A stretch of DNA of 64,000 bases, taken from positions 186,001 to 250,000 of the forward strand of contig NZ_BJTG01000005.1 in assembly GCF_013340205.1 (NCBI RefSeq). The letters are read 5' to 3'. Each line of letters starts with the position of its first letter. Position 1 is the first letter of the stretch. The notes below the pieces were generated by a model. The model was given only the letters and a program-made list of their open reading frames with translations, did not search any database and had not been told where the DNA came from. A program made the translations under genes and the position numbers. This DNA is from Anaeromyxobacter diazotrophicus (lineage in GTDB: Bacteria > Myxococcota > Myxococcia > Myxococcales > Anaeromyxobacteraceae). Of this stretch, positions 46,535-61,850 are shown in pieces.

Positions 46535-46682
46535 CCGGAGTTAAGGCAGGCCTGACGGCCGCGAGGCCGGTGCGGGTGCCCGCGGCGGGCGCCCGGGAGC
46601 GGAGCACGAGCGTGTCTCGCAAAGAGGGTGAGCCGCCGTCGGCCAGCCAGGGCGCGCGCGCCCCGCACGGTCCAACTCTTGA

Positions 46683-46756
46683 TGAGGCGTCGTCTAACGG
46701 CAGGACCGCGGACTTTGGATCCGCTCATGAAGGTTCGAATCCTTCCGCCTCAGCCA
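46683..46756 (+). tRNA. tRNA-Gln (anticodon TTG), CCA encoded
   Basis: The cloverleaf folds fully: acceptor TGAGGCG/CGCCTCA (7 bp, with the U1-A72 pair typical of tRNA-Gln), D arm GTC/GAC, anticodon stem GCGGA/TCCGC with loop CTTTGGA giving anticodon TTG, variable loop TCAT, T arm GAAGG/CCTTC with loop TTCGAAT, discriminator G, then encoded CCA (46754-46756). It is the only tRNA found in the window. Confidence 0.95.
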
Positions 46757-46809
46757 AGCCCGCGTCGGCCCGCCCCACCAACCAGCGCGCCGAGCTGCGC
46801 CCGCTGACC

Positions 46810-47340
46810 ATGCCGGCGCGGGTGACGGTGCTGGCGGTCGGCAGCGTCCAGCGCCCGCTGCTGGCCGAGGTCGGGGCCACGCTCACCCACACCTTCGGCC
46901 CGGCCAGCCACCTCGGTCCGTCGCAGGCGACGCCGGTCTACGCCTTCAACAAGGACCGGCAGCAGTACCACTCGACGGCGGTGCTGCGACGGCTGGCGCA
47001 GCTCTCCCAGGCGGCGCTCGGGCCGGTGGTGGCGGTCACCGACGTCGACCTGTTCGTGCCGGACGCGCCGTTCGTCTTCGGCGAGGCGGACCGCGACGCG
47101 CGCACCGCCATCGTCTCGCTGTTCCGGCTCGGCCACGGCCCCGACGGCCGGCCCGCCGAGCCGGAGCGGCTCCGCCGCCGGCTGCAGGCCGAGTCGATCC
47201 ACGAGCTCGGGCACCTGCTCGGCCTGTCGCACTGCCAGGACGCGCGCTGCGCCATGTTCCTCTCCCACAAGCCGTCCGACTCGGACCGCAAGCAGGCCGG
47301 CCTGTGCGCCGCGTGCCGGTCCGCGCTCGGGATGGGGTGA
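46810..47340 (+). CDS. Archaemetzincin-family zinc metalloprotease
   Basis: Putative metalloprotease of the archaemetzincin (AMZ) family, 176 aa. The extended zinc motif HELGHLLGLSHC (HExxHxxGxxHC) is followed by the family cysteines (CQDARCAMFLS, then GLCAACRSAL) that form the second zinc-binding site. The N-terminal half is a beta-alpha fold (VTVLAVGSVQRPLLAEVGAT). Start ATG 46810 is chosen at the domain start; the frame stays open upstream through the tRNA gene, which is a coincidence of composition. The family is common in archaea and patchy in bacteria, including myxobacteria. Physiological substrate unknown. It lies 54 bp after the tRNA. Confidence 0.9.
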   Translation: MPARVTVLAVGSVQRPLLAEVGATLTHTFGPASHLGPSQATPVYAFNKDRQQYHSTAVLRRLAQLSQAALGPVVAVTDVDLFVPDAPFVFGEADRDARTAIVSLFRLGHGPDGRPAEPERLRRRLQAESIHELGHLLGLSHCQDARCAMFLSHKPSDSDRKQAGLCAACRSALGMG

Positions 47341-48742: not shown

Positions 48743-50833
48743 TCACTCCCGCTCGGGCGCCGCCTGCGCCGCGGGCGCCGTGGCGCCGCCGCCGGCGGGC
48801 CTGCCGAGCTGCACCAGCCCCGACGCCACGATCTCCGCCACGTCGAGCACCTGGAGCTTCTCCTCGCGCCCGGTCTCGTTCACGCCGTCGCGGAGCATGG
48901 TCATGCAGAACGGGCACCCGACGGCGACCACGCCGCCCGAGTCGCCCAGGGTGGCCGCGGCCTCGTCCACCCGGTGCTGGTTCACGCGGGTGCCGAGCTT
49001 CTCCTCCAGCCACATCCGCCCGCCGCCGGCCCCGCAGCAGAAGCCCTGCCGCCGGTTGCGCGGCATCTCCTGCACCGCGACGCCCACGCTCTCGAGCGCC
49101 GCGCGGGGCGCCTCGTACACGCCGTTGTGGCGCGCCAGGTAGCACGGGTCGTGGAAGGTGACCGGCTGGCCGGCGAGCCCCGGGGCGCGGCCGGGCGCGA
49201 GCCGCCCGTCGGCGACGAGGCGCGCGATGAGCTCGGTGTGGTGCACCACCTCGAAGCGCCCCCCGAACTGCGGGAACTCGTTCTTGAGGGTGTTGAGGCA
49301 GTGCGGGCACTGCACCAGGATCTTCTTCACCCCGTAGCCGTTCAGGAGGTCGACGTTGGCCTGCGCCTGCATCTGGAACAGGTACTCGTTCCCGAGCCGG
49401 CGGGCCGCCTCGCCGTTGCAGGTCTCCTCCTCGCCCAGGATGGCGAACGACACCTTCGCCTCGCGCAGGATCTGGACGATGGCGCGGGAGACCTTCTTCT
49501 GGCGGTCGTCGAAGGCGCCGGCGCAGCCGACGAAGAACAGGTACTCGAACTCCTTCGTCTCGCTGGCGCGCGGCAGCGCCAGGTCCTCGCACCACTCGGT
49601 GCGCCGGTTCGAGCCGATGCCCCAGGGGTTCCCCTGGGTCTCGATGTTCTTGAAGACGCGCGCCGCCTCCTCCGGGAAGTCGGAGTCGACGAGCACCTTC
49701 TGGCGCCGCAGGTCGACGAGGCGCGGGATGTTCTCGATGAAGACCGGGCAGGCCGTCTCGCACCAGCCACAGGTGGTGCAGGCCCAGAAGGTGGCGGGCG
49801 GCACCACCTCGGAGAGGGGCGGGAGCGCGGCGGCGGCGGCCTCCTTCGCCGCCGGGTCCTTCGCGCGCCACAGCGCCGCCAGCTCGGGCGCCTTCTCGAT
49901 GAGGTGGTGCTTCACGGCCCGGTTCACCTCCTTGTGGCTGAGGGGCTTCCCGGTGACGTAGGTCGGGCAGTGGGTCTGGCACCGGCCGCACTCGGTGCAG
50001 CTGTAGACGTCGAGCCCCTCCTTCCAGGAGAGGTCCTTCACGGTGGCGGCGCCGAAGGAGGCGTCCTCGCGCTCGAGGTCGAGCTTGCGCAGCGCCGAGG
50101 AGGCGGGCGGCAGCGCGCGCAGGTAGACGTTCGGGAGGCCGGTGATGATGTGGAAGTGCTTCCCGTACGGGAGGAAGTTGCCGAAGGTGAGGATGATGGC
50201 GAGGTGCAGCCAGAAGCCCGCCAGGCCGACCGCGCGCACCGCCCCCGCCGAGAGGCCGAGGCCGCGGTAGAGCTCGGCCGCGAGCGAGCCCGCCGGAGCC
50301 CAGAAGCTCGCCGCCTCGCCGGTCGCGATCATTCCGGCGCCGTCGAACATCATGTCGGTGACCATGAGCCCGGCGATGAAGCCGAGGATGAGGTTCCCCT
50401 CCCAGGAGAGCGTGATGCGGTCGGGCTTCGTGACGAGCCGCCGCCACAGGAACCCGAGCGCGGCCACGAGCGCCAGGAGCACCATCACGTCCTTCACGAA
50501 CGCGTAGCCGCGGCCGAAGGGCGAGTCGGGGGCGAGGAGCGGCAGGTGGAAGCCCTCGGAGAACCCCATCCCGAAGAGCGTCACGGTCCGGAGGGCCAGC
50601 ACCAGGAAGGCCGCGAAGATGACGACGTGCATGGCCCCCGGGCGGAACTCCTCCGGGTCGACCATGCGCCGCTGCCCGAAGCCGAAGCGCAGCAGCCCCT
50701 CGAGGCGCTCGCCGGCCCGATCGAGGCGGTCGACGCGCCTGAGCGCGAGGAGCGGCACGACGCGCCGCACCATCGTCCAGACGAAGAAGCTGCCTCCGGC
50801 GAGGAGCAGCAGGGTGGTGAGGAGCGGGCTCAT
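48743..50833 (-). CDS. Membrane-bound Fe-S oxidoreductase with CCG domains
   Basis: 696 aa. The N-terminal half has about six membrane helices (LLTTLLLLAGGSFFVW, VVIFAAFLVLALRTVTLF and others) and resembles the haem b-binding gamma subunit of nitrate reductase. Two 4Fe-4S motifs follow: CTECGRCQTHCPT (279-291) and CTTCGWCETACPV. The C-terminal half has two CCG domains of the heterodisulfide reductase HdrB/GlpC type (FVGCAGAFDD with CPHCLNTLKNEFP, and DPCYLARHNG with GFCCGAGGGRM). Such fused proteins are proposed to pass electrons from electron-transfer flavoprotein to menaquinone in deltaproteobacteria; that role is inferred. Start ATG 50833 is at the first membrane helix. Confidence 0.88.
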   Translation of the reverse strand: MSPLLTTLLLLAGGSFFVWTMVRRVVPLLALRRVDRLDRAGERLEGLLRFGFGQRRMVDPEEFRPGAMHVVIFAAFLVLALRTVTLFGMGFSEGFHLPLLAPDSPFGRGYAFVKDVMVLLALVAALGFLWRRLVTKPDRITLSWEGNLILGFIAGLMVTDMMFDGAGMIATGEAASFWAPAGSLAAELYRGLGLSAGAVRAVGLAGFWLHLAIILTFGNFLPYGKHFHIITGLPNVYLRALPPASSALRKLDLEREDASFGAATVKDLSWKEGLDVYSCTECGRCQTHCPTYVTGKPLSHKEVNRAVKHHLIEKAPELAALWRAKDPAAKEAAAAALPPLSEVVPPATFWACTTCGWCETACPVFIENIPRLVDLRRQKVLVDSDFPEEAARVFKNIETQGNPWGIGSNRRTEWCEDLALPRASETKEFEYLFFVGCAGAFDDRQKKVSRAIVQILREAKVSFAILGEEETCNGEAARRLGNEYLFQMQAQANVDLLNGYGVKKILVQCPHCLNTLKNEFPQFGGRFEVVHHTELIARLVADGRLAPGRAPGLAGQPVTFHDPCYLARHNGVYEAPRAALESVGVAVQEMPRNRRQGFCCGAGGGRMWLEEKLGTRVNQHRVDEAAATLGDSGGVVAVGCPFCMTMLRDGVNETGREEKLQVLDVAEIVASGLVQLGRPAGGGATAPAAQAAPERE

Positions 50834-50969
50834 GGCGGCGACGGTAGCCCTGCGGAAAGCGGTGCCGCAAGGGTTTAGGCGGGCCCCTGACGCGGTGCGC
50901 TGTGAGCTGGGACGCCGGGGGGGCCTCCGCGGATGACGCGCCGCGTGGTTTGCCATGCGTAAACCCCCG

Positions 50970-51010
50970 GTTGAATCCGACACATCTGGGGAGTCGATTC
51001 GGATATCAAC
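50970..51010. promoter_or_regulatory. Inverted repeat upstream of the lipase-FadL operon, possible operator
   Basis: GTTGAATCCGA (50970-50980) is the reverse complement of TCGGATATCAAC (50999-51010) with one extra base. It lies 80 bp before the lipase start in an otherwise featureless, less GC-rich stretch. Symmetry of this size fits a TetR- or GntR-type regulator site, as used for fatty-acid genes, but no regulator is encoded nearby. Confidence 0.4.
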
Positions 51011-51087
51011 AAGCGGCTAAACGGTTGCTCTCACCTTCGTCTGCCGTCCGCCGACACGCATCCGCTCCAACGTCGAGGAGACACCCC

Positions 51088-54045
51088 ATGCATCGTCGCC
51101 GCCTCCTGACCGTGGCGTCCGCCGCGGCCGCCCTCGCGGCCTGCGCGCCGTCGATCGACAAGCACACCAACCCGGCGAGCACGGACTACGTGCTCTTCGA
51201 CCCCTCGGTCTCGGAGATCCCGCTCCCGAACGACCTGGCGCTGCAGCCCACCTCGATCGCGGCCACCACCGGCGCGCAGCAGGAGCTGCTCCAGTCGTTC
51301 GCGGCGCAAGGCGGGTTCCCGAACGACCAGGAGGCGCCGATCACGATCGACGTGCAGCGCGACACGTACAGCGGGAACACCATCACGAAGGGCCCGCCGC
51401 CCGACGGGGTGGACCTCGCGACGGTGAAGCTCGTCGGGGCGGTGCCCTCGGGCGCGAACGTGGCCCTGTTCGAGAAGAAGGCGGGGGCGACGACGCCCGC
51501 GCCGGTGCCGCCCAACACCTACGCGGTGACCTACGTCCAGTCGGCCGACCGCGGGACGATCACCATCCGCAACAACCTGCACGACGTCACGCTCAGCCCC
51601 GGCGAGACGATCAAGAGCCAGCGCTGGAACGCGGGCTCGCAGTACATCGTCCTCGTCCGCGGCGGCGCGAGCGGCGTGAAGCTGAAGGGCGGCGGCGAGC
51701 TGGTGGCCCAGCCGACGATGTACCTCCTCACGCGCGGCGTGGACCTCTCGCTCGCCGAGAACGAGTACCTCCTGCCCGGCAGCGGCCGGGTGGGACGCGC
51801 CGCCACCGGCGCGCAGCTCGAGGCGCTCCGCCAGCAGTACCTGCCGCTCTTCGGCCTCGCCGAGCAGGCGTTCGGCGCCGGCGCCTCGAAGGACCTGGTC
51901 TCGGTGCAGACCTTCCAGATCGCGCCCGCCAAGGCGGGCGCGGCGGTGGTCACCGACGCCAGCGCCGGGGTGGTGCCGCTGCCCTCCGACCTGCTCCTCG
52001 ACCCGGCCACCGGGGGCAAGACCATCGTCAACAACCCGGCCTTCGGCGCGCTGGCGAGCGGGATCGCGACGCTCGACGGGTTCAGCACGACGGCGATGGA
52101 GCTCACCCAGACGAGCGCGCCGGTGGTGGCCTCGACCGTCAGCGCGAGCAGCGTGTTCCTCTACGACCTCTCGAACCCGGCCGCGCCCGTGCGCCTGAAG
52201 GAGGTCAAGGAGACGATCTCGGCGGGCGGGGCGGGAGCGGCCTTCGTGGCCGAGCCGTACCAGATGACGGTGAAGCCGACCGGCGCGACCACCACGGCCG
52301 CCTGCGGGCCGACGGACGACCCCGCGGGCTGCTTCTCGCCGGCGATCGGGCTGCAGCCGGCGGTGCCGGTGCCGCTGGGGGCGACGGGTCCGTACCTGGC
52401 GCTGCCGCCGCTCAAGGAGGGCACCGAGTACGCGGTGCTCATCACGGATGGCGTGCTGAGCGCCCCCGCGACCGTCGGCGGGGCGAAGCCGCCCCTGCAG
52501 GGCTCGACGCTCTCGCGCATCCTCCTCTTCGACAGCCCGCTCGTCGACAAGGACGGCAAGTCGCAGGTGCCGGGGCAGAGCGACGCCACCGCGGCCGGGC
52601 TGGAGCAGATCCGGCAGGGCGTGGGCGCGGCGGCGAAGGCGCTCCAGGCCGAGAAGGGGATCGCGAAGTCGCACGTCGTGCTCGGGTACACCTTCCGCAC
52701 GCAGACCATCACCGACGCCTCGCTGAGGCTCGCGGCCTACCCGTACTCGGCGGCCTCGAAGTTCGTGCCTGGGGCGAAGGTGGACGTCACGGCCACCTTG
52801 AAGGGCGCGGCGACCGCCAAGGGCATCCCGACCACCGGCGTCCAGGCGTTCTGGACGGTGCCCTTCTTCACCAAGAACCCCATCGACGTCGCCACCGGCG
52901 CGCTCAACCCCGACAACAGCAAGTGGACCGACGCCTCGCTCACGGCGCTGGTGGTGGTGCCGAACGGGCCGAAGCAGGGCGCCCCGCTGGTCGTCTTCCA
53001 GCACGGCCTCACGGGCGACAAGGGGAACGTGCTCGCCATCGCCAGCACGCTCGCCTCGGCCGGGTTCGTGACGGCCGCCATCGACGCGCCGCTGCACGGT
53101 GATCGGGCCTACTGCAAGGCGGACGCCGAGTGCGTGTGCGCCGCCGGCGGGACCGGCTGCAACCCGAAGTGCAACCTCTTCCCGGCCGGCGCGCAGGGCG
53201 ACACGGCCTCCGGCGTGTGCTCGGCCGGCGCCGTGCCTTGCAGCGGCACCCTGGTCTCGGCGGGCGCGTGCACCACCTCGGTCTCCGGCAACTTCTTCGT
53301 CAGCGGGAACCTCTTCCGCACCCGCGACGCGCTGCGCGAGTCGATCCTCGACACCTCCGCGCTCGTCCTGGCGCTCGCTCCGCCGAGCACGCCGAGCGGC
53401 ACCTTCGCCACGGACCTCGCGGCGGCCGGCGTCACCATCGACCCGAGCAAGGTCTACTGGGTCGGCCAGTCGCTCGGCGGCATCCTCGGCACGCTCAACA
53501 CCGCCGCCAACCCGCGCATCAGCAAGGCGGTCCTGAACGTGCCCGGCGGGACGCTGACCGACGTCTTCACCCAGTCGCCGACCTTCGCCCCGCAGCTCAC
53601 CCCGATCCTGACCTCGCTCGGCATCACGGTCGGCACGCCGCAGTACCTGCAGTTCCTCCAGGTCGCGAAGCTCGCGCTGGACGGCGGCGACCCGGTGAAC
53701 TTCGGGGGCCACCTCACGGGAGACACCGCGCACCCCACCCTGAAGGACCTCCTCGCCTCGAAGCCCAACCAGTCGGCGAAGAGCGTCTTCGGCCAGGTCG
53801 CGACGGGTGACACGGTGATCCCGAACCCGTTCAACTACGAGCTCCTCGGGAACGTGTTCACCTCACCGCAGCCCGACCTGACGAAGAGCGCGAGCAACGT
53901 CTCGACCTACTCGAGCGGTGGCGGCGCGGCGACGCACGGCTTCCTGCTCGACTTCACGAACCCGACGCTGACGCTCACCGCCCAGGGCGACGCGGCCGCC
54001 TTCCTCACCGCCGGCACCCTCCCTCCCGCCGCTCAGAACAAGTAG
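51088..54045 (+). CDS. VolA-like surface lipoprotein lipase
   Basis: 985 aa. A signal peptide with lipobox LAAC (Cys19) predicts a lipid anchor. The first 600 residues are beta-rich modules of the bacterial lipase N-terminal type (VLFDPSVSEIPLPNDLAL, repeated as VVPLPSDLLLDPATGG). The C-terminal part is an alpha/beta hydrolase: APLVVFQHGLTGDKGNVLAI (oxyanion region) and nucleophile elbow VGQSLGG with Ser795. Four or more cysteines around CKADAECVCAAGGTGCNPKC suggest disulfides. This layout matches Vibrio VolA/Pla-type lysophospholipases, and like volA the gene is followed 12 bp later by a fadL gene. Start ATG 51088 has GAGGAG at 7 bp. Confidence 0.82.
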   Translation: MHRRRLLTVASAAAALAACAPSIDKHTNPASTDYVLFDPSVSEIPLPNDLALQPTSIAATTGAQQELLQSFAAQGGFPNDQEAPITIDVQRDTYSGNTITKGPPPDGVDLATVKLVGAVPSGANVALFEKKAGATTPAPVPPNTYAVTYVQSADRGTITIRNNLHDVTLSPGETIKSQRWNAGSQYIVLVRGGASGVKLKGGGELVAQPTMYLLTRGVDLSLAENEYLLPGSGRVGRAATGAQLEALRQQYLPLFGLAEQAFGAGASKDLVSVQTFQIAPAKAGAAVVTDASAGVVPLPSDLLLDPATGGKTIVNNPAFGALASGIATLDGFSTTAMELTQTSAPVVASTVSASSVFLYDLSNPAAPVRLKEVKETISAGGAGAAFVAEPYQMTVKPTGATTTAACGPTDDPAGCFSPAIGLQPAVPVPLGATGPYLALPPLKEGTEYAVLITDGVLSAPATVGGAKPPLQGSTLSRILLFDSPLVDKDGKSQVPGQSDATAAGLEQIRQGVGAAAKALQAEKGIAKSHVVLGYTFRTQTITDASLRLAAYPYSAASKFVPGAKVDVTATLKGAATAKGIPTTGVQAFWTVPFFTKNPIDVATGALNPDNSKWTDASLTALVVVPNGPKQGAPLVVFQHGLTGDKGNVLAIASTLASAGFVTAAIDAPLHGDRAYCKADAECVCAAGGTGCNPKCNLFPAGAQGDTASGVCSAGAVPCSGTLVSAGACTTSVSGNFFVSGNLFRTRDALRESILDTSALVLALAPPSTPSGTFATDLAAAGVTIDPSKVYWVGQSLGGILGTLNTAANPRISKAVLNVPGGTLTDVFTQSPTFAPQLTPILTSLGITVGTPQYLQFLQVAKLALDGGDPVNFGGHLTGDTAHPTLKDLLASKPNQSAKSVFGQVATGDTVIPNPFNYELLGNVFTSPQPDLTKSASNVSTYSSGGGAATHGFLLDFTNPTLTLTAQGDAAAFLTAGTLPPAAQNK

Positions 54046-54057
54046 AGGACGACACCC

Positions 54058-55305
54058 ATGCGCACCTACGCACTCGCTGCCGCCCTCCTCCTCGCCCCGG
54101 CCGTCGCCCTCGCCGGCGGCTACGCCGTCCCCAACGTCAGCCCGCGCGACCTCTCCATGGCGGGCTCGCTCCACGCCGCCCAGGTGGACGCCGGCGCGGC
54201 CTTCGTGAACCCGGCCGCGCTGGCCAACCTCGACGGCCTGTCGCTGTCGCTCGGGGCCGGGCTCATCGACAACCGCAGCACCTGGACCGGCGTCGGCCCG
54301 GAGGCCGGCAAGAGCGCGAGCCAGTACGTGAAGCCGGCCTTCCCGCCCGCGGTCTACGCGGCGTATGGCCTGCCGCTCTCCGGCGACATGCGGCTCGGCG
54401 TCGGCGTGGGCATGACGGTGCCCTTCGGCGGCAACGTCAACTGGCCGGCCGGCTGGCCGGGCCGCTTCGACATCCTCACCGTCAACCGGCGCATCTACGG
54501 CACCTACTTCACGGCGGGCCTCCAGCTCGCGAAGTGGGTGCGCGTCGGCGGCGGGCTCATCTGGTACCGCGGGACGGAGAAGCTCACCCAGAACGTGAAC
54601 TTCTACCCGGAGACCGAGGCGCAGCTGTCGGCCTCGGGCAACAAGCTCTCCTACGACGTCTCGCTCGAGCTGCAGCCCATCGAGCCGCTCAAGCTCGCCT
54701 TCGACTACAAGCACAAGGCGGACATGTCGCTCACCGGCGACGCCACGTTCGGCGGGGCGCCGGCGCAGTTCGCCTCCCGCGCGCTCGATCAGGGCGTCAC
54801 CCACGACCTGACCATGCCGAACTACCTGGCGTTCGCGGCCGCGTACCAGGTGATGCCGGAGCTGCTCGTGACCGGCGCCTTCACCTGGGACCGCTTCATC
54901 GTCTACGACAAGGACGCGTTCATCGGCACCGCCGGCGCGGCGATCGTCGTGCCCCGCCACTACCACAACGGCTACACCTTCCGGCTCGGGGCCGAGCTCG
55001 CGCCCATGGAGAAGCTCAAGGTCCGCGCGGGCGTGCTGCGCGACATCACGCCGACGCCGGCGGAGTGGCTGTCGCCCACCATCCCCGACTCGGACGTGTG
55101 GGGCGCCTCGATCGGCGTCGGCTACACGGTCTCGCCCGGCCTCGACGTGAACCTGGCCTACTTCCACGCCTGGTTCGACGCGGTCACCACGCCGCCGGGG
55201 GCCGGCGGTCAGTACAACGTGCTCCCGGGCCGGTACACGCCCTTCGCGAACATCGCCAGCGTGGGCGTGAGCTGGGCGCCCGAGAAGACGTTCGGGAAGC
55301 TCTAG
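54058..55305 (+). CDS. FadL/OmpP1/TodX-family outer-membrane transporter
   Basis: 415 aa outer-membrane beta barrel for long-chain fatty acids or other hydrophobic compounds. A signal peptide (LLLAPAVALA) is followed by the FadL hatch-like N-terminus GGYAVPNVSPRDLSMAGSLH and AGAAFVNPAALANLDGLSLS with the conserved NPA motif. Many amphipathic strands follow, e.g. LKLAFDYKHKADMSLTGDAT and HYHNGYTFRLGAELAPMEKL. It ends VSWAPEKTFGKL rather than with the usual Phe. It is 12 bp downstream of the lipase gene, so released fatty acids could be passed directly to it, as proposed for VolA-FadL in Vibrio. Confidence 0.88.
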   Translation: MRTYALAAALLLAPAVALAGGYAVPNVSPRDLSMAGSLHAAQVDAGAAFVNPAALANLDGLSLSLGAGLIDNRSTWTGVGPEAGKSASQYVKPAFPPAVYAAYGLPLSGDMRLGVGVGMTVPFGGNVNWPAGWPGRFDILTVNRRIYGTYFTAGLQLAKWVRVGGGLIWYRGTEKLTQNVNFYPETEAQLSASGNKLSYDVSLELQPIEPLKLAFDYKHKADMSLTGDATFGGAPAQFASRALDQGVTHDLTMPNYLAFAAAYQVMPELLVTGAFTWDRFIVYDKDAFIGTAGAAIVVPRHYHNGYTFRLGAELAPMEKLKVRAGVLRDITPTPAEWLSPTIPDSDVWGASIGVGYTVSPGLDVNLAYFHAWFDAVTTPPGAGGQYNVLPGRYTPFANIASVGVSWAPEKTFGKL

Positions 55306-55325
55306 GTACCGCTCGCGGTGAAACG

Positions 55326-55357
55326 GGACCTCGCCCGCCTCGGCGCGGGCGAGGTCC
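55326..55357. terminator. Strong hairpin between the fadL-like gene and the convergent lipoprotein gene
   Basis: A perfect 13-bp stem GGACCTCGCCCGC (55326-55338) / GCGGGCGAGGTCC (55345-55357) with a 6-nt loop, followed by a short TCTGCTGTT. It is placed to end both transcripts. Confidence 0.6.
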
Positions 55358-55365
55358 TCTGCTGT

Positions 55366-56433
55366 TCAGCGGTCGTCGCGGGCGCGCTTGGCCGCGTCGC
55401 GGATTTCGTGCTTCTCGCCCGGCTCCTTCGAGCGGCCGCCGCCGTTGTCCTTCTTGGCCTGGCCGGGCGGCGTGCCGCCGTGGCCCGGCGGCGTGGCCGG
55501 CTGGCCCGCGGGCGCGAGGCTGCGGCCCGGGCCGGCGACGGTCTGCGCCGGGGGGGCGTAGGTCTGGCCGGGAGGCGTTCCACCGCGGCCCGGGGGCGTG
55601 AAGGCCTGGCCCGGCGGTGTGCCGCCGTGGCCGGGCGGCGTGAAGGCCTGCCCCGGCGGCGTCCCACCCTGCCCGGGCGGCGTCCCGCCCTGGCCCGGCG
55701 GTGGGTTGGGGCGGACGGTGGCGCCCCAACCGTTCGGCTGCGCCGGCCGCGGGGGGTAGGCGGGCTGCGGCTGCGCGTAGGGCTGCGGCGCCGGGCGCGG
55801 CGCGTAGGCCGGCGCGGGGGCCGGCGCGGGGGCCGGAGCCGGAGCCGGGGCGTAAGCGGGCGCCGGCGCCGGGCGGGGGGCGTAGCCAGGGGCCGGAGCC
55901 GGCGCGCGGTAGGCGGGCGCCGGCGCGGGCGCCTGGCGCGGGTCGTAGAAGCGCGCCGGCGCGGGCCGCACCCAGTAGCTGCGCGGCGGCTGCTGCGCGG
56001 CGCTGTACGGGCCGCGGTAGAGGTAGCCGCGGCCGGGGTGGAACGCCCAGTACGCGTCGCGCGGCGGCGCGTAGTCGTGGACGTGGGGGCCGCTGAGGTA
56101 GCACCACCCGCCGCCCGGGAGCGGGTGGCCGGCGTAGTAGGTCACCGCGACCGGCGCGCGCCAGGCGTAGTAGCCGTTCTCGACCACGAAGAGGTCGGCG
56201 CGCTCCGGGTAGTAGTCGTGCTCGTGCGGGCCGTCGAGGTAGCACCAGCCGCCGCCCGGGATGGCGTGCTCGCCGTAGTAGGCGACGCGCAGCGGCGGGG
56301 CCGGCGCCGGCGCGGGCTCCGCGTACACCGGCATGGGCTCGGGGGGCGGCCCGGCCGGCACGGTCGTGACCGTGCGGACGACGCAGCCGCCGAGGAGGGA
56401 CGCGAAGACGGGGAGGAGCAGGAGACGGCGCAT
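55366..56433 (-). CDS. Repetitive Pro/Ala/Gly-rich lipoprotein
   Basis: 355 aa from ATG 56433, with GAGG 7 bp upstream. The signal ends with lipobox LGGC (Cys17). Two copies of an aromatic module GGGWCYLxGPHxHDYxP lie at about 60-77 and 107-123, each preceded by a Y-Y-G/A-x-H segment. Then low complexity: a Pro/Ala/Tyr region (about 165-245, PAPAP and YAPRPAP) and tandem PPGQGGT/PPGHGGT repeats (about 255-340), and a basic end (KHEIRDAAKRARDD). No enzyme motif is visible. It could be a surface or cell-wall-spanning protein; the conserved Trp-Cys module suggests a small structural domain. Function unknown. Confidence 0.75.
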   Translation of the reverse strand: MRRLLLLPVFASLLGGCVVRTVTTVPAGPPPEPMPVYAEPAPAPAPPLRVAYYGEHAIPGGGWCYLDGPHEHDYYPERADLFVVENGYYAWRAPVAVTYYAGHPLPGGGWCYLSGPHVHDYAPPRDAYWAFHPGRGYLYRGPYSAAQQPPRSYWVRPAPARFYDPRQAPAPAPAYRAPAPAPGYAPRPAPAPAYAPAPAPAPAPAPAPAYAPRPAPQPYAQPQPAYPPRPAQPNGWGATVRPNPPPGQGGTPPGQGGTPPGQAFTPPGHGGTPPGQAFTPPGRGGTPPGQTYAPPAQTVAGPGRSLAPAGQPATPPGHGGTPPGQAKKDNGGGRSKEPGEKHEIRDAAKRARDDR

Positions 56434-56517
56434 GGGCACCCTCGCTGGTGGACGACCCGTTCTAGGACGTTCGCGGTCGAGCGTCCATTCACGGGCCCCG
56501 CCGCGCGATGTGCGCGC

Positions 56518-58262: not shown

Positions 58263-58380
58263 CGAAGGCGGGGAGCTTAGGCCCCGCGGCGCCGGTCCCG
58301 CAACCGCCGTCCCGCGGCGCCGCGTTCGTTGCTCCCCCCTCGCGCCGCTGCTACAAAACGTGTTTTCCACGAGGGTCCAC

Positions 58381-61224
58381 TTGGCTGCCGACTACAAGGA
58401 CACGGTCCACCTCCCGAAGACGGACTTCCCGATGAAGGCCAACCTGCCCCAGCGGGAGCCGGAGATCCTGCGGGCCTGGGAGGAGGAGGGCGTCTTCGAG
58501 AAGCTCGTCGCGCGCGCCGCGGCGCGGCCGGGCGCGCGCCGCTTCGTGCTCCACGACGGCCCGCCCTACGCCAACGGCGACATCCACATCGGCCACGCCC
58601 TCAACAAGATCCTGAAGGACGTGATCGTGAAGTACCACGCCATGCTGGGCGAGGTGGCGGACTACGTGCCGGGCTGGGACTGCCACGGGCTGCCCATCGA
58701 GCTCAAGGTGGACAAGGAGCTCGGGCCGAAGAAGCGCGAGATGGGGCGGGCGGACGTCATCCTGGCCTGCCGCCGCTACGCGCTCAAGTGGATCGAGAAG
58801 CAGCGCGACGCCTTCAAGCGGCTCGGCGTCTTCGGCCGCTGGGGCGAGCCGTACCTCACCATGGCGCGCGGCTACGAGGCGGACACCGTCCGCGTGCTGG
58901 CGCGCGCCGCCGAGCAGGGCTTCCTCTACCGGGGCAAGAAGCCGGTCTACTGGTGCATCACCGACCGCACCGCCCTGGCCGAGGCCGAGGTCGAGTACGC
59001 CGACCACGCCTCGCCCTCCATCCACGTCGCCTTCGACCTCGTCTCGCCGCTGCCCGGCGGGAAGCTCGCCGGCCGGAAGGCGCGGCTCGTCATCTGGACC
59101 ACCACGCCCTGGACGCTCCCCGCCAACCTGGCGGTGGCCGCGCACCCCGAGCTCGTCTACGTGGCGTACGACCTCGCCGGCACGGTGGTGGTGGTGGCGA
59201 AGGACCTCCTCGCGAGCTTCCTCGCCGCGGTCGCGCCGGGCGAGCTCGTCCCGACCGCGCCCCCCGCGCACGCGCCCCAGGCGCACGAGGCGATGACGAG
59301 CGGCGGCGGCACTGGCGCGGCGCTCGCCCACCCCGAGCGCGTCCTCGCCACCTTCCAGGGCAAGGAGCTCGAGGGGCTCGTCTACCGGCACCCCTTCATG
59401 GACCGCGAGGGCACGGTCATCCTGGGCGAGCACGTGACGCTCGAGGCCGGCACCGGCCTCGTCCACACCGCGCCCGGCCACGGCCAGGAGGACTACCAGG
59501 TGGGGCAGCAGTACGGCCTCGCCATCCTGAACCCGGTGGACGGGGCGGGCCGCTTCACCGCCGAGGCGGGCCCGTACGCCGGCCAGAAGATCTTCGAGGC
59601 GAACCCGAAGATCGTGGCCGACCTGGCCGCCTCGGGGCACCTCCTCTCCGATCCCAAGGCGCAGCTCCGGCACAGCTACCCGCACTGCTGGCGCTGCCAC
59701 AACCCGGTCGTCTTCCGGGCCACCGACCAGTGGTTCCTCTCCATGGAGCACGCCGAGCTCCGGAAGCGCACGCTGGAGGAGATCCGGCGGGTGCAGTGGA
59801 TCCCGAGCTGGGGCGAGGAGCGCATCTCGAACATGATCGAGAACCGCCCGGACTGGTGCCTGTCGCGCCAGCGCACCTGGGGCGTGCCCATCCCGGTCTT
59901 CTACTGCGAGCAGTGCGACGAGCCGCTCGTCTCGCCCGCGGTGATGCGGCGGGTGGCGGACGCCTTCGAGGAGGAGGGCATCGAGGCCTGGTACACGCGC
60001 GACGCCGCGCAGCTCGCCGGCGACGCGAAGTGCGGGAAGTGCGGCGGTCAGGCCTGGCGCCGCGAGCAGGACATCCTCGACGTGTGGTGGGACTCGGGCA
60101 GCTCCTGGGCGGCGGTGGCCGAGCGGCGCGGGATGGGCGTGCCGGTGGACCTGTACCTCGAGGGCTCCGACCAGCACCGCGGCTGGTTCCACAGCTCGCT
60201 CCTCACCTCGATGGCGGTGCGCGGGAGCGCGCCCTACAAGGCGGTCCTCACCCACGGCTTCGTCCTCGACGCGCAGGGCAAGGCCATGTCGAAGAGCGTC
60301 GGCAACACGGTGGCGCCGGAGGAGGTGCTGAAGAAGTACGGCGCCGACGTGCTCCGGCTGTGGGTGGCCTCCACCGACTACCGCGAGGACGTGCGGCTCG
60401 GCGACGAGATCCTGGCCGGCCTGGCCGAGGGGTACCGCAAGATCCGCAACACCGTGCGCTGGGCGCTCGGGAACCTCGACGGCTTCGACCCGGCCACCCA
60501 GAGCGTGCCGGTGGAGGAGCTGGAGGACATCGACCGCTGGGCGGTGTCTCGGCTCGTGGAGTGGGAGGCGAAGGTGAAGCAGGCCTACGCCGACTACGAG
60601 TTCCACCTCGCCTACCACGCGACCGTGCAGCTCTGCGCGGTGGAGCTCTCGGCGCAGTACTTCGACATCATCAAGGACCGGCTCTACACGGCGAAGAAGG
60701 ACGGGAAGGCGCGGCGGAGCGCCCAGACCGCGCTCCACCTCATCGCCGGCGACCTCCTGCGGCTGCTCGCCCCCATCCTCTCCTTCACCGCCGAGGAGGC
60801 GTGGGGCTTCCTCCCCGAGCCGCCGGCGGAGGACTCGGTGTTCTACGCCGGGTTCCCGGAGCGGACACGGCCGGCCGATGCGGCCGCGCTGGAGGCGCGC
60901 TACGGGCGGCTCTTCGCCGTGCGCGCGGTGGTGCAGAAGGCGCTCGAGGAGGCGCGGCGCGCGAAGCTCATCGGCTCCGGCCTGGAGGCGCAGGTCACGG
61001 TCCGCGCCGAGGGCGAGGAGCTGGCGCTGCTCGAGGCTTACCGGGCCGAGCTGCCGGTGCTCTTCATCGTCTCGAAGGTGCTGCTCGAGAAGGGCCCGCT
61101 CGCGGCCGAGGTGGCCAAGGCGCCCGGCGCGAAGTGCCCGCGCTGCTGGGGCGTCCACGAGGACATCGGCCAGGACGCGCGGCACCCCGAGCTGTGCGGC
61201 AAGTGCGCGGCGGCGCTCGCGTGA
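58381..61224 (+). CDS. ileS: Isoleucyl-tRNA synthetase
   Basis: Class I synthetase that charges tRNA-Ile and edits valine. 947 aa. Visible: DYKDTVHLPKTDFPMKANLP at the N-terminus, HIGH at 69-72 (DIHIGHALNKILKD), the editing domain with WTTTPWTLPANLAV, KMSKS variant KAMSKSVGN at 634-642, and C-terminal zinc cysteines in CPRCWGVHEDIGQ and LCGKCAAAL; a further CEQC/CGKC pair lies near 515-555. The start is TTG 58381: GAGGG lies 5 bp upstream and no nearer ATG fits. It overlaps lspA by 4 bp (GTGA), the usual ileS-lspA arrangement. Confidence 0.97.
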   Translation: MAADYKDTVHLPKTDFPMKANLPQREPEILRAWEEEGVFEKLVARAAARPGARRFVLHDGPPYANGDIHIGHALNKILKDVIVKYHAMLGEVADYVPGWDCHGLPIELKVDKELGPKKREMGRADVILACRRYALKWIEKQRDAFKRLGVFGRWGEPYLTMARGYEADTVRVLARAAEQGFLYRGKKPVYWCITDRTALAEAEVEYADHASPSIHVAFDLVSPLPGGKLAGRKARLVIWTTTPWTLPANLAVAAHPELVYVAYDLAGTVVVVAKDLLASFLAAVAPGELVPTAPPAHAPQAHEAMTSGGGTGAALAHPERVLATFQGKELEGLVYRHPFMDREGTVILGEHVTLEAGTGLVHTAPGHGQEDYQVGQQYGLAILNPVDGAGRFTAEAGPYAGQKIFEANPKIVADLAASGHLLSDPKAQLRHSYPHCWRCHNPVVFRATDQWFLSMEHAELRKRTLEEIRRVQWIPSWGEERISNMIENRPDWCLSRQRTWGVPIPVFYCEQCDEPLVSPAVMRRVADAFEEEGIEAWYTRDAAQLAGDAKCGKCGGQAWRREQDILDVWWDSGSSWAAVAERRGMGVPVDLYLEGSDQHRGWFHSSLLTSMAVRGSAPYKAVLTHGFVLDAQGKAMSKSVGNTVAPEEVLKKYGADVLRLWVASTDYREDVRLGDEILAGLAEGYRKIRNTVRWALGNLDGFDPATQSVPVEELEDIDRWAVSRLVEWEAKVKQAYADYEFHLAYHATVQLCAVELSAQYFDIIKDRLYTAKKDGKARRSAQTALHLIAGDLLRLLAPILSFTAEEAWGFLPEPPAEDSVFYAGFPERTRPADAAALEARYGRLFAVRAVVQKALEEARRAKLIGSGLEAQVTVRAEGEELALLEAYRAELPVLFIVSKVLLEKGPLAAEVAKAPGAKCPRCWGVHEDIGQDARHPELCGKCAAALA

Positions 61225-61850
61225 GCGCCCGCGGCCCGGACAAGTGGAAGCTCCTCGCCGCGCTGGCGGCGCTGGGGATCGCGCTCGACCAGTGGACGAA
61301 GTACCTGGCGGTGGAGCGGCTCACCAGCGCCTTCGCGCGGGTCGGCGCGCACGGGCTCGAGGCGCGGCTGGCGGCCTTCTTCCGGCTGCGCTACCTCGAG
61401 CCGCTCGCCACCGAGCCGTACTACGTGTTCAGGCCCTTCTGGCGCATGAACTACGTGGAGAACCCGGCCGCGGCGTTCAGCATGTTCTCGTTCGTGCCGC
61501 CCGACCTGCGCTACCGGCTGTTCCTGCTGGTGTCGGTGGCGGCGATCGGGTTCGTCTTCTACTACTACCGCCGCCTCGCGACCTCGCAGCGCTTCCTGCA
61601 GGTGGCGCTCGCCTTCGTGCTGGCGGGCACGGTGGGGAACCTCGTCGACCGGCTCGCCCGCCGGTACGTCATCGACTTCGTCGAGTGGTACTGGTGGAAC
61701 CGGCCCGACCTGCGCTGGCCCACCTTCAACGTGGCCGACTCGCTGCTCGTGGTGGGGATCGCCATGCTGCTCGTGCACCCCGCCCCGAAGGCGGCGCCGG
61801 GCAGCCTCGACCTCGGGCCCGGGAACAAGCGGACCGCCTCGCGGGTCTAG
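61221..61850 (+). CDS. lspA: Lipoprotein signal peptidase LspA with an internal insertion
   Basis: Inner-membrane aspartyl protease that removes signal peptides from prolipoproteins. 209 aa, about 40 longer than usual. Helix 1 with ALDQWTKYLAV is followed by an extra segment (about 35-75, LTSAFARVGAHGLEARLAAF to TEPYYVFRPFW) before the conserved NYVENPAAAFSMFS. The two catalytic aspartates are visible in AGTVGNLVDRLARRYVIDFV and WPTFNVADSLLVVG. The start is GTG 61221, overlapping the ileS stop. It is followed 6 bp later by lgt, so both lipoprotein-processing steps are encoded together. Confidence 0.95.
   Translation: MSARGPDKWKLLAALAALGIALDQWTKYLAVERLTSAFARVGAHGLEARLAAFFRLRYLEPLATEPYYVFRPFWRMNYVENPAAAFSMFSFVPPDLRYRLFLLVSVAAIGFVFYYYRRLATSQRFLQVALAFVLAGTVGNLVDRLARRYVIDFVEWYWWNRPDLRWPTFNVADSLLVVGIAMLLVHPAPKAAPGSLDLGPGNKRTASRV

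Follow-up and report, generated by a model that had tools for sequence, protein, structure and literature searches.

The window analysed here is a stretch of 64,000 nucleotides from Anaeromyxobacter diazotrophicus (contig NZ_BJTG01000005.1, positions 186,001 to 250,000 of the forward strand). It holds two adjacent genes on the forward strand, the first encoding a large predicted lipoprotein with an alpha/beta-hydrolase domain and the second an outer-membrane barrel of the FadL type (Table 1). The original prediction, made from the letters of the DNA, read them as a VolA-like surface lipase coupled to a FadL porin that scavenges membrane lipids, perhaps from prey or dead cells.

Table 1. Features of the lipase-FadL locus, in window coordinates
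Feature	Position	Strand	Basis
VolA-like lipoprotein lipase gene, 985 aa	51088..54045	+	ORF translation, TIGR03502 match, alignment
Signal peptide of a lipoprotein with LAAC lipobox; Cys19 lipidated (codon 51142-51144), +2 Ala, +7 Lys	51088..51144	+	
N-terminal module 1 (Lipase_bact_N-like) with PND motif, residues 28-283	51169..51936	+	profile match to module 2, TIGR03502 positions 35-63, model
N-terminal module 2, residues 284-545, PSD and DGFSTT motifs, tandem copy of module 1 (by sequence)	51937..52722	+	hhalign
Alpha/beta-hydrolase domain, residues 580-985	52825..54042	+	Pfam, TIGR03502, model, structural neighbours
Cys-rich insertion in hydrolase, residues 676-735	53113..53292	+	low model confidence, alignment
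Nucleophile Ser795 codon in GQSLGG	53470..53472	+	invariant in 43/43
Asp908 codon, probable triad acid	53809..53811	+	invariant in 43/43
His950 codon, probable triad base	53935..53937	+	invariant in 43/43
Gap between lipase and FadL genes, 12 bp	54046..54057	+	stop ending 54045, ATG 54058
Gene of a 415-aa outer-membrane barrel, FadL type, with NPA motif (residues 51-53)	54058..55305	+	PF03349, model, Foldseek
Strong hairpin with a stem of 14 bp, lying 19 bases behind the fadL stop, without clear T tract	55325..55358	+	z -3.39

The translation of the first gene begins with MHRRRLLTVASAAAALAAC and contains the lipobox LAAC with Cys19, and the serine of its GQSLGG motif is residue 795, in line with the lipoprotein originally described. 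In our lipase alignment of 43 members, window protein included, a lipobox is found by pattern in 41, and the remaining two show a Cys at this place by eye. In M. xanthus, eight of 12 lipoproteins of the inner membrane carry Lys at +2 and seven of ten lipoproteins of the matrix carry Ala at +7, the latter residue being required for export of FibA (PMC3222651). The window lipase has Ala at +2 and Lys at +7 and shows neither the inner-membrane nor the matrix feature; among the 41 members whose lipobox is picked up by the pattern, one has Lys at +2 and none has Ala at +7. Since both features are missing, the outer membrane is the expected place for the lipase.

Judged by sequence, the lipase is a divergent relative of VolA and Pla-1 and not a certified member of TIGR03502, the VolA/Pla-1 phospholipase model. 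This model matches the protein with an E value of 1.5e-33 and 116 bits (100.7 bits in the genome search); its cut-off of 383.9 was tested and not reached, and for this reason the lipase is not filed under it. The homology of the catalytic region is significant (residues 624-842 correspond to model positions 438-620), a fragment search aligned residues 28-56 with model positions 35-63, and all 43 alignment members match at E <= 1e-3. The VolA-like nature originally claimed is supported, as a distant homology to the VolA/Pla-1 family, by these matches to the catalytic domain and to the PND motif near the N-terminus. The claim that the N-terminal modules are lipase modules needs a finer reading. 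PF12262 (Lipase_bact_N) gave no match to the window lipase, up to E 1 for the whole protein and up to E 10 for fragments. It does match ten of the 43 members at E <= 0.01, and the match is placed on module 1 in L052 and on module 2 in L038. The lack of a lipase N-terminal domain match, which the original prediction had set as counter-evidence, is literally what was found for PF12262 in the window protein; since PF12262 matches relatives on either module, this does not overturn the idea.

The AlphaFold2 model of the lipase, built from the 43 sequences, has a mean pLDDT of 85.7 and a pTM of 0.86. The two N-terminal modules are a tandem duplication by their profiles: module 1 aligned to module 2 in hhalign with a probability of 99.8 and an E value of 4.1e-27, whereas controls of either module against the hydrolase domain gave 0.1-0.2. 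All 43 alignment rows cover both modules, the lowest coverage being 0.79 for module 1 and 0.73 for module 2. Far longer lipase relatives of about 1426 aa, with extra sequence, occur in one genus (g40; L046 2546-6823, L049 490-4770). Ser795, Asp908 and His950 likely form the catalytic triad. The Cys-rich stretch of 60 residues inserted in the hydrolase, in which Cys676 and Cys691 are invariant (43/43) and Cys711 is kept in 41/43, may be a lid.

Pfam finds alpha/beta-hydrolase and PAF-AH pieces in the lipase, PAF-AH_p_II with 20.4 bits lying barely above its cut-off of 20. In the structural look-up the hydrolase comes nearest to CE7 acetyl xylan esterases (6agq_A, Z 25.5, rmsd 3.6, 305 aligned), followed by Lp-PLA2, the plasma PAF acetylhydrolase (3f98_A, Z 20.9, rmsd 3.4, 257 aligned). 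The Lp-PLA2/plasma PAF acetylhydrolase chains share the hydrolase fold but, as aligned, are without such N-terminal modules and have 16-18% identity to the window lipase. These neighbours indicate the fold and not the substrate. As the structural look-up (VIA-align rows) spans mainly residues 433-984 and barely covers the N-terminal modules, no new fold is claimed for the latter.

The downstream barrel is a clear FadL. As predicted, its ATG lies 12 bp behind the lipase stop codon. It matches PF03349 (Toluene_X, OMPP1/FadL/TodX) with an E value of 2e-32 and 112.7 bits, well exceeding the cut-off of 29.7, and was modelled with a pLDDT of 90.7 and a pTM of 0.88. In a Foldseek search with this model ranks 1-18 were all FadL entries (3dwo, E 2.8e-27; 1t16_A, E 4.9e-22), and the barrel is nearer to FadL than to TodX entries. 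The FadL equivalog NF007988 (PRK10716) reached 40 bits, below its cut-off of 585. In a FadL alignment of 43 rows N51 and A53 are nearly invariant, and G116 is invariant; the latter lies in strand 112-128, which would correspond to the third, kinked strand of FadL. The window protein shares the N-terminal plug region, the NPA motif and a barrel TM of 0.8 with E. coli FadL (1t16) and the P. aeruginosa FadL homologue (3dwo), at 17-20% identity. In E. coli, fadL is not known to have a lipase gene beside it. FadL channels let their substrate out laterally, by an opening of the barrel at strand S3 (PMC7728783).

The hairpin behind fadL is possibly the end of a two-gene transcript; it is not among the predictions of the terminator scan. 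No sigma-70-like promoter was found in 50700-55600. An upstream operator, seen by eye as an inverted repeat at about 50970-51010, was dropped; it is absent from the repeat search and aligns poorly in four close relatives. Other genes in the window include, on the minus strand at 55366-56439, an ORF of 357 aa whose start resembles a lipobox (LLGGC) and which carries tandem repeats of the GGTPPGQ type with 21-bp and 42-bp periods; it had no Pfam match at E <= 0.001. On the plus strand, 46570-47340 encodes an M54 (archaemetzincin-like) metallopeptidase (PF07998, E 5.3e-13), and the ORF at 58332-61847 ends in signal peptidase II (PF01252, residues 979-1149), the lipoprotein-maturing enzyme; its placement is probably ordinary.

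The conserved pairing of the two genes is the strongest result for their coupling. In A. diazotrophicus itself, a search of the whole genome gave a single place each for TIGR03502 and PF03349, and these are adjacent. Across the order, lipase relatives are found in 127 of 145 genomes and FadL relatives in 114. Among the matches listed, the lipase lies directly upstream and on the same strand for 111/135 FadL places, in 101 genomes, and FadL lies directly downstream of 104/120 long lipase places (those of more than 2300 bases), with a median gap of 39 bases between match ends. Among the same listed matches, 16 of the 120 long lipase places are without FadL directly downstream; in two of these (G067, G035:C45) FadL is broken or cut by the contig end, and others are second lipase copies in their genomes. 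FadL places without a lipase number 24 of the 135 listed. In a set of 19 neighbourhoods, the window and 18 further loci, the only groups found in all 19 are the lipase, FadL and frames antisense to both; every other neighbour group is present in at most seven regions and consists mostly of shadow frames or of genes common to the closest relatives, so that no further conserved neighbour gene was found in these neighbourhoods.

Because lipase relatives occur in 127 of 145 genomes, mostly in the same gene order, the pair is not a chance arrangement, and its staying together while the flanks vary is strong evidence for joint function. The lipase/FadL correlation of pairwise identities (0.90 over 820 pairs) is uncontrolled and reflects only common descent; it was not used as evidence of co-evolution. 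In two genomes of the same family (L067, 6629-12573; L069, 1594-7570) the lipase has FadL-type genes on both sides, the one just upstream being a second, more distant FadL. The proteins P0001, L052 and L038 had no tblastn match in the plasmid collection.

A lipase gene beside fadL is already known from Vibrio. In Vibrio cholerae, volA (vca0863) and one of the fadL genes (vca0862) have adjacent locus numbers (PMC9496633), which places them side by side like the window pair, and VolA is likewise a lipoprotein with a PND-type N-terminus and, by TIGR03502, an alpha/beta-hydrolase. In the window lipase the stretch from the PND motif to the hydrolase is about 190 residues longer than in the TIGR03502 model (28-624 versus 35-438), which is consistent with an additional module. 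Furthermore, V. cholerae has the additional FadL genes vc1042 and vc1043 (PMC9496633), whereas A. diazotrophicus has a single PF03349 place. Docking predicted vca0862 to be without a channel inside the barrel (PMC9496633), so that even in Vibrio VolA and this particular FadL are putative partners.

In M. xanthus, a lipoprotein and a FadL with adjacent numbers, MXAN7039 and MXAN7040, are probably the counterpart of the window pair. This assignment rests on gene order, on annotation and on the presence of the pair in genomes of this order, many of which have a single FadL match. Both proteins were found in the outer-membrane fraction, MXAN7039 as 'putative lipoprotein' and MXAN7040 as 'FadL', with 34 and 13 peptides; the number for MXAN7039 is the second highest in the table of outer-membrane barrels (PMC3222651). 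The MXAN7040 fadL mutant LS3125 showed no incorporation of palmitate-alkyne, while its development and lipid bodies were reported as normal (PMC4048283), so that recycling of dead siblings is not needed for these. Another study, in which MXAN_7040 is called 'putative outer membrane protein P1', lists it as lower at a colony boundary (PMC6627406).

Taken together, the original interpretation is supported in part, and we consider it probable that the window pair is a two-gene lipid-uptake unit working like Vibrio VolA with FadL. The lipoprotein would sit at the outer membrane, most likely on its outward side, and would cut acyl esters of external lipids such as phospholipid, lysophospholipid or glyceride debris. 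Fatty acid released in this way would then enter the FadL groove, leave it sideways into the outer membrane and be activated to acyl-CoA, to be used in membranes or oxidised. Domains of the acyl-CoA-ligase and thiolase types are present in the genome, which is not specific. Outside the window, at about 318230-359067 of contig C5, a run of AMP-binding domains is spread over open frames of great length, which probably make up a large non-ribosomal peptide cluster. A more far-reaching version of the uptake unit, in which lipoprotein and barrel form one physical machine, with the modules docking the hydrolase over the FadL mouth and handing acyl chains into the channel, as the main lipid-import route of Myxococcota, seems rather unlikely to us.

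Many outer-membrane lipoproteins face inwards. If the lipase did so, either FadL would import hydrophobic esters or phospholipids of the inner leaflet of the outer membrane would arrive at the enzyme, which would then serve in housekeeping or in an import-then-cut pathway. This would agree with the outer-membrane location of MXAN7039, which leaves the side undecided (PMC3222651), and with the diverse hydrophobic compounds that FadL channels transport (PMC7728783). However, VolA, the relative that has been characterised, is exposed on the cell surface and keeps this exposure in E. coli (PMC5500766). We regard an inward orientation as unlikely, though worth keeping in mind.

A second alternative concerns the substrate: the enzyme might be an esterase acting on a non-lipid or short-acyl compound (acetylated polysaccharide, polyester, wax or aromatic ester), with FadL taking up the hydrophobic product. 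The rank of the CE7 esterases as best structural neighbours, a weak match of a PHA depolymerase NCBIfam model in 3/43 members and the membership of toluene channels in the Toluene_X family point this way. Yet the VolA/Pla-1 phospholipase model is the best sequence model in 43/43, PAF-AH, a phospholipase family, is matched in Pfam by 23/43 at E <= 0.01, the barrel is nearer to FadL than to TodX, and M. xanthus FadL is required for palmitate uptake (PMC4048283). A substrate of this kind is, in our judgement, distinctly improbable.

That the pair is a predatory weapon, its lipase attacking prey envelopes and its FadL taking in the products, is very improbable, the pair being equally kept in the family holding Anaeromyxobacter oryzae (L004), whose genus is not known for predation. 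Although the myxobacterial lipase ArEstA is lytic on E. coli (PMC10794672), the FadL-like genes MXAN_7040 and MXAN_6116 are reported to be down-regulated in co-culture with prey (PMC9548883), which also speaks against prey as the lipid source, as originally suggested.

Among the papers listed by the literature searches, no report of this lipase-FadL pair was found. Foremost among the new findings are the conserved pairing, the module duplication and the probable link to two M. xanthus outer-membrane proteins. If the reading as a lipid-uptake unit is true, surface lipid scavenging would be a general trait of one order, with the pair in 101 genomes among the matches listed. It would also give a testable role to MXAN7039, a protein named merely 'putative lipoprotein' in the outer-membrane table (PMC3222651).
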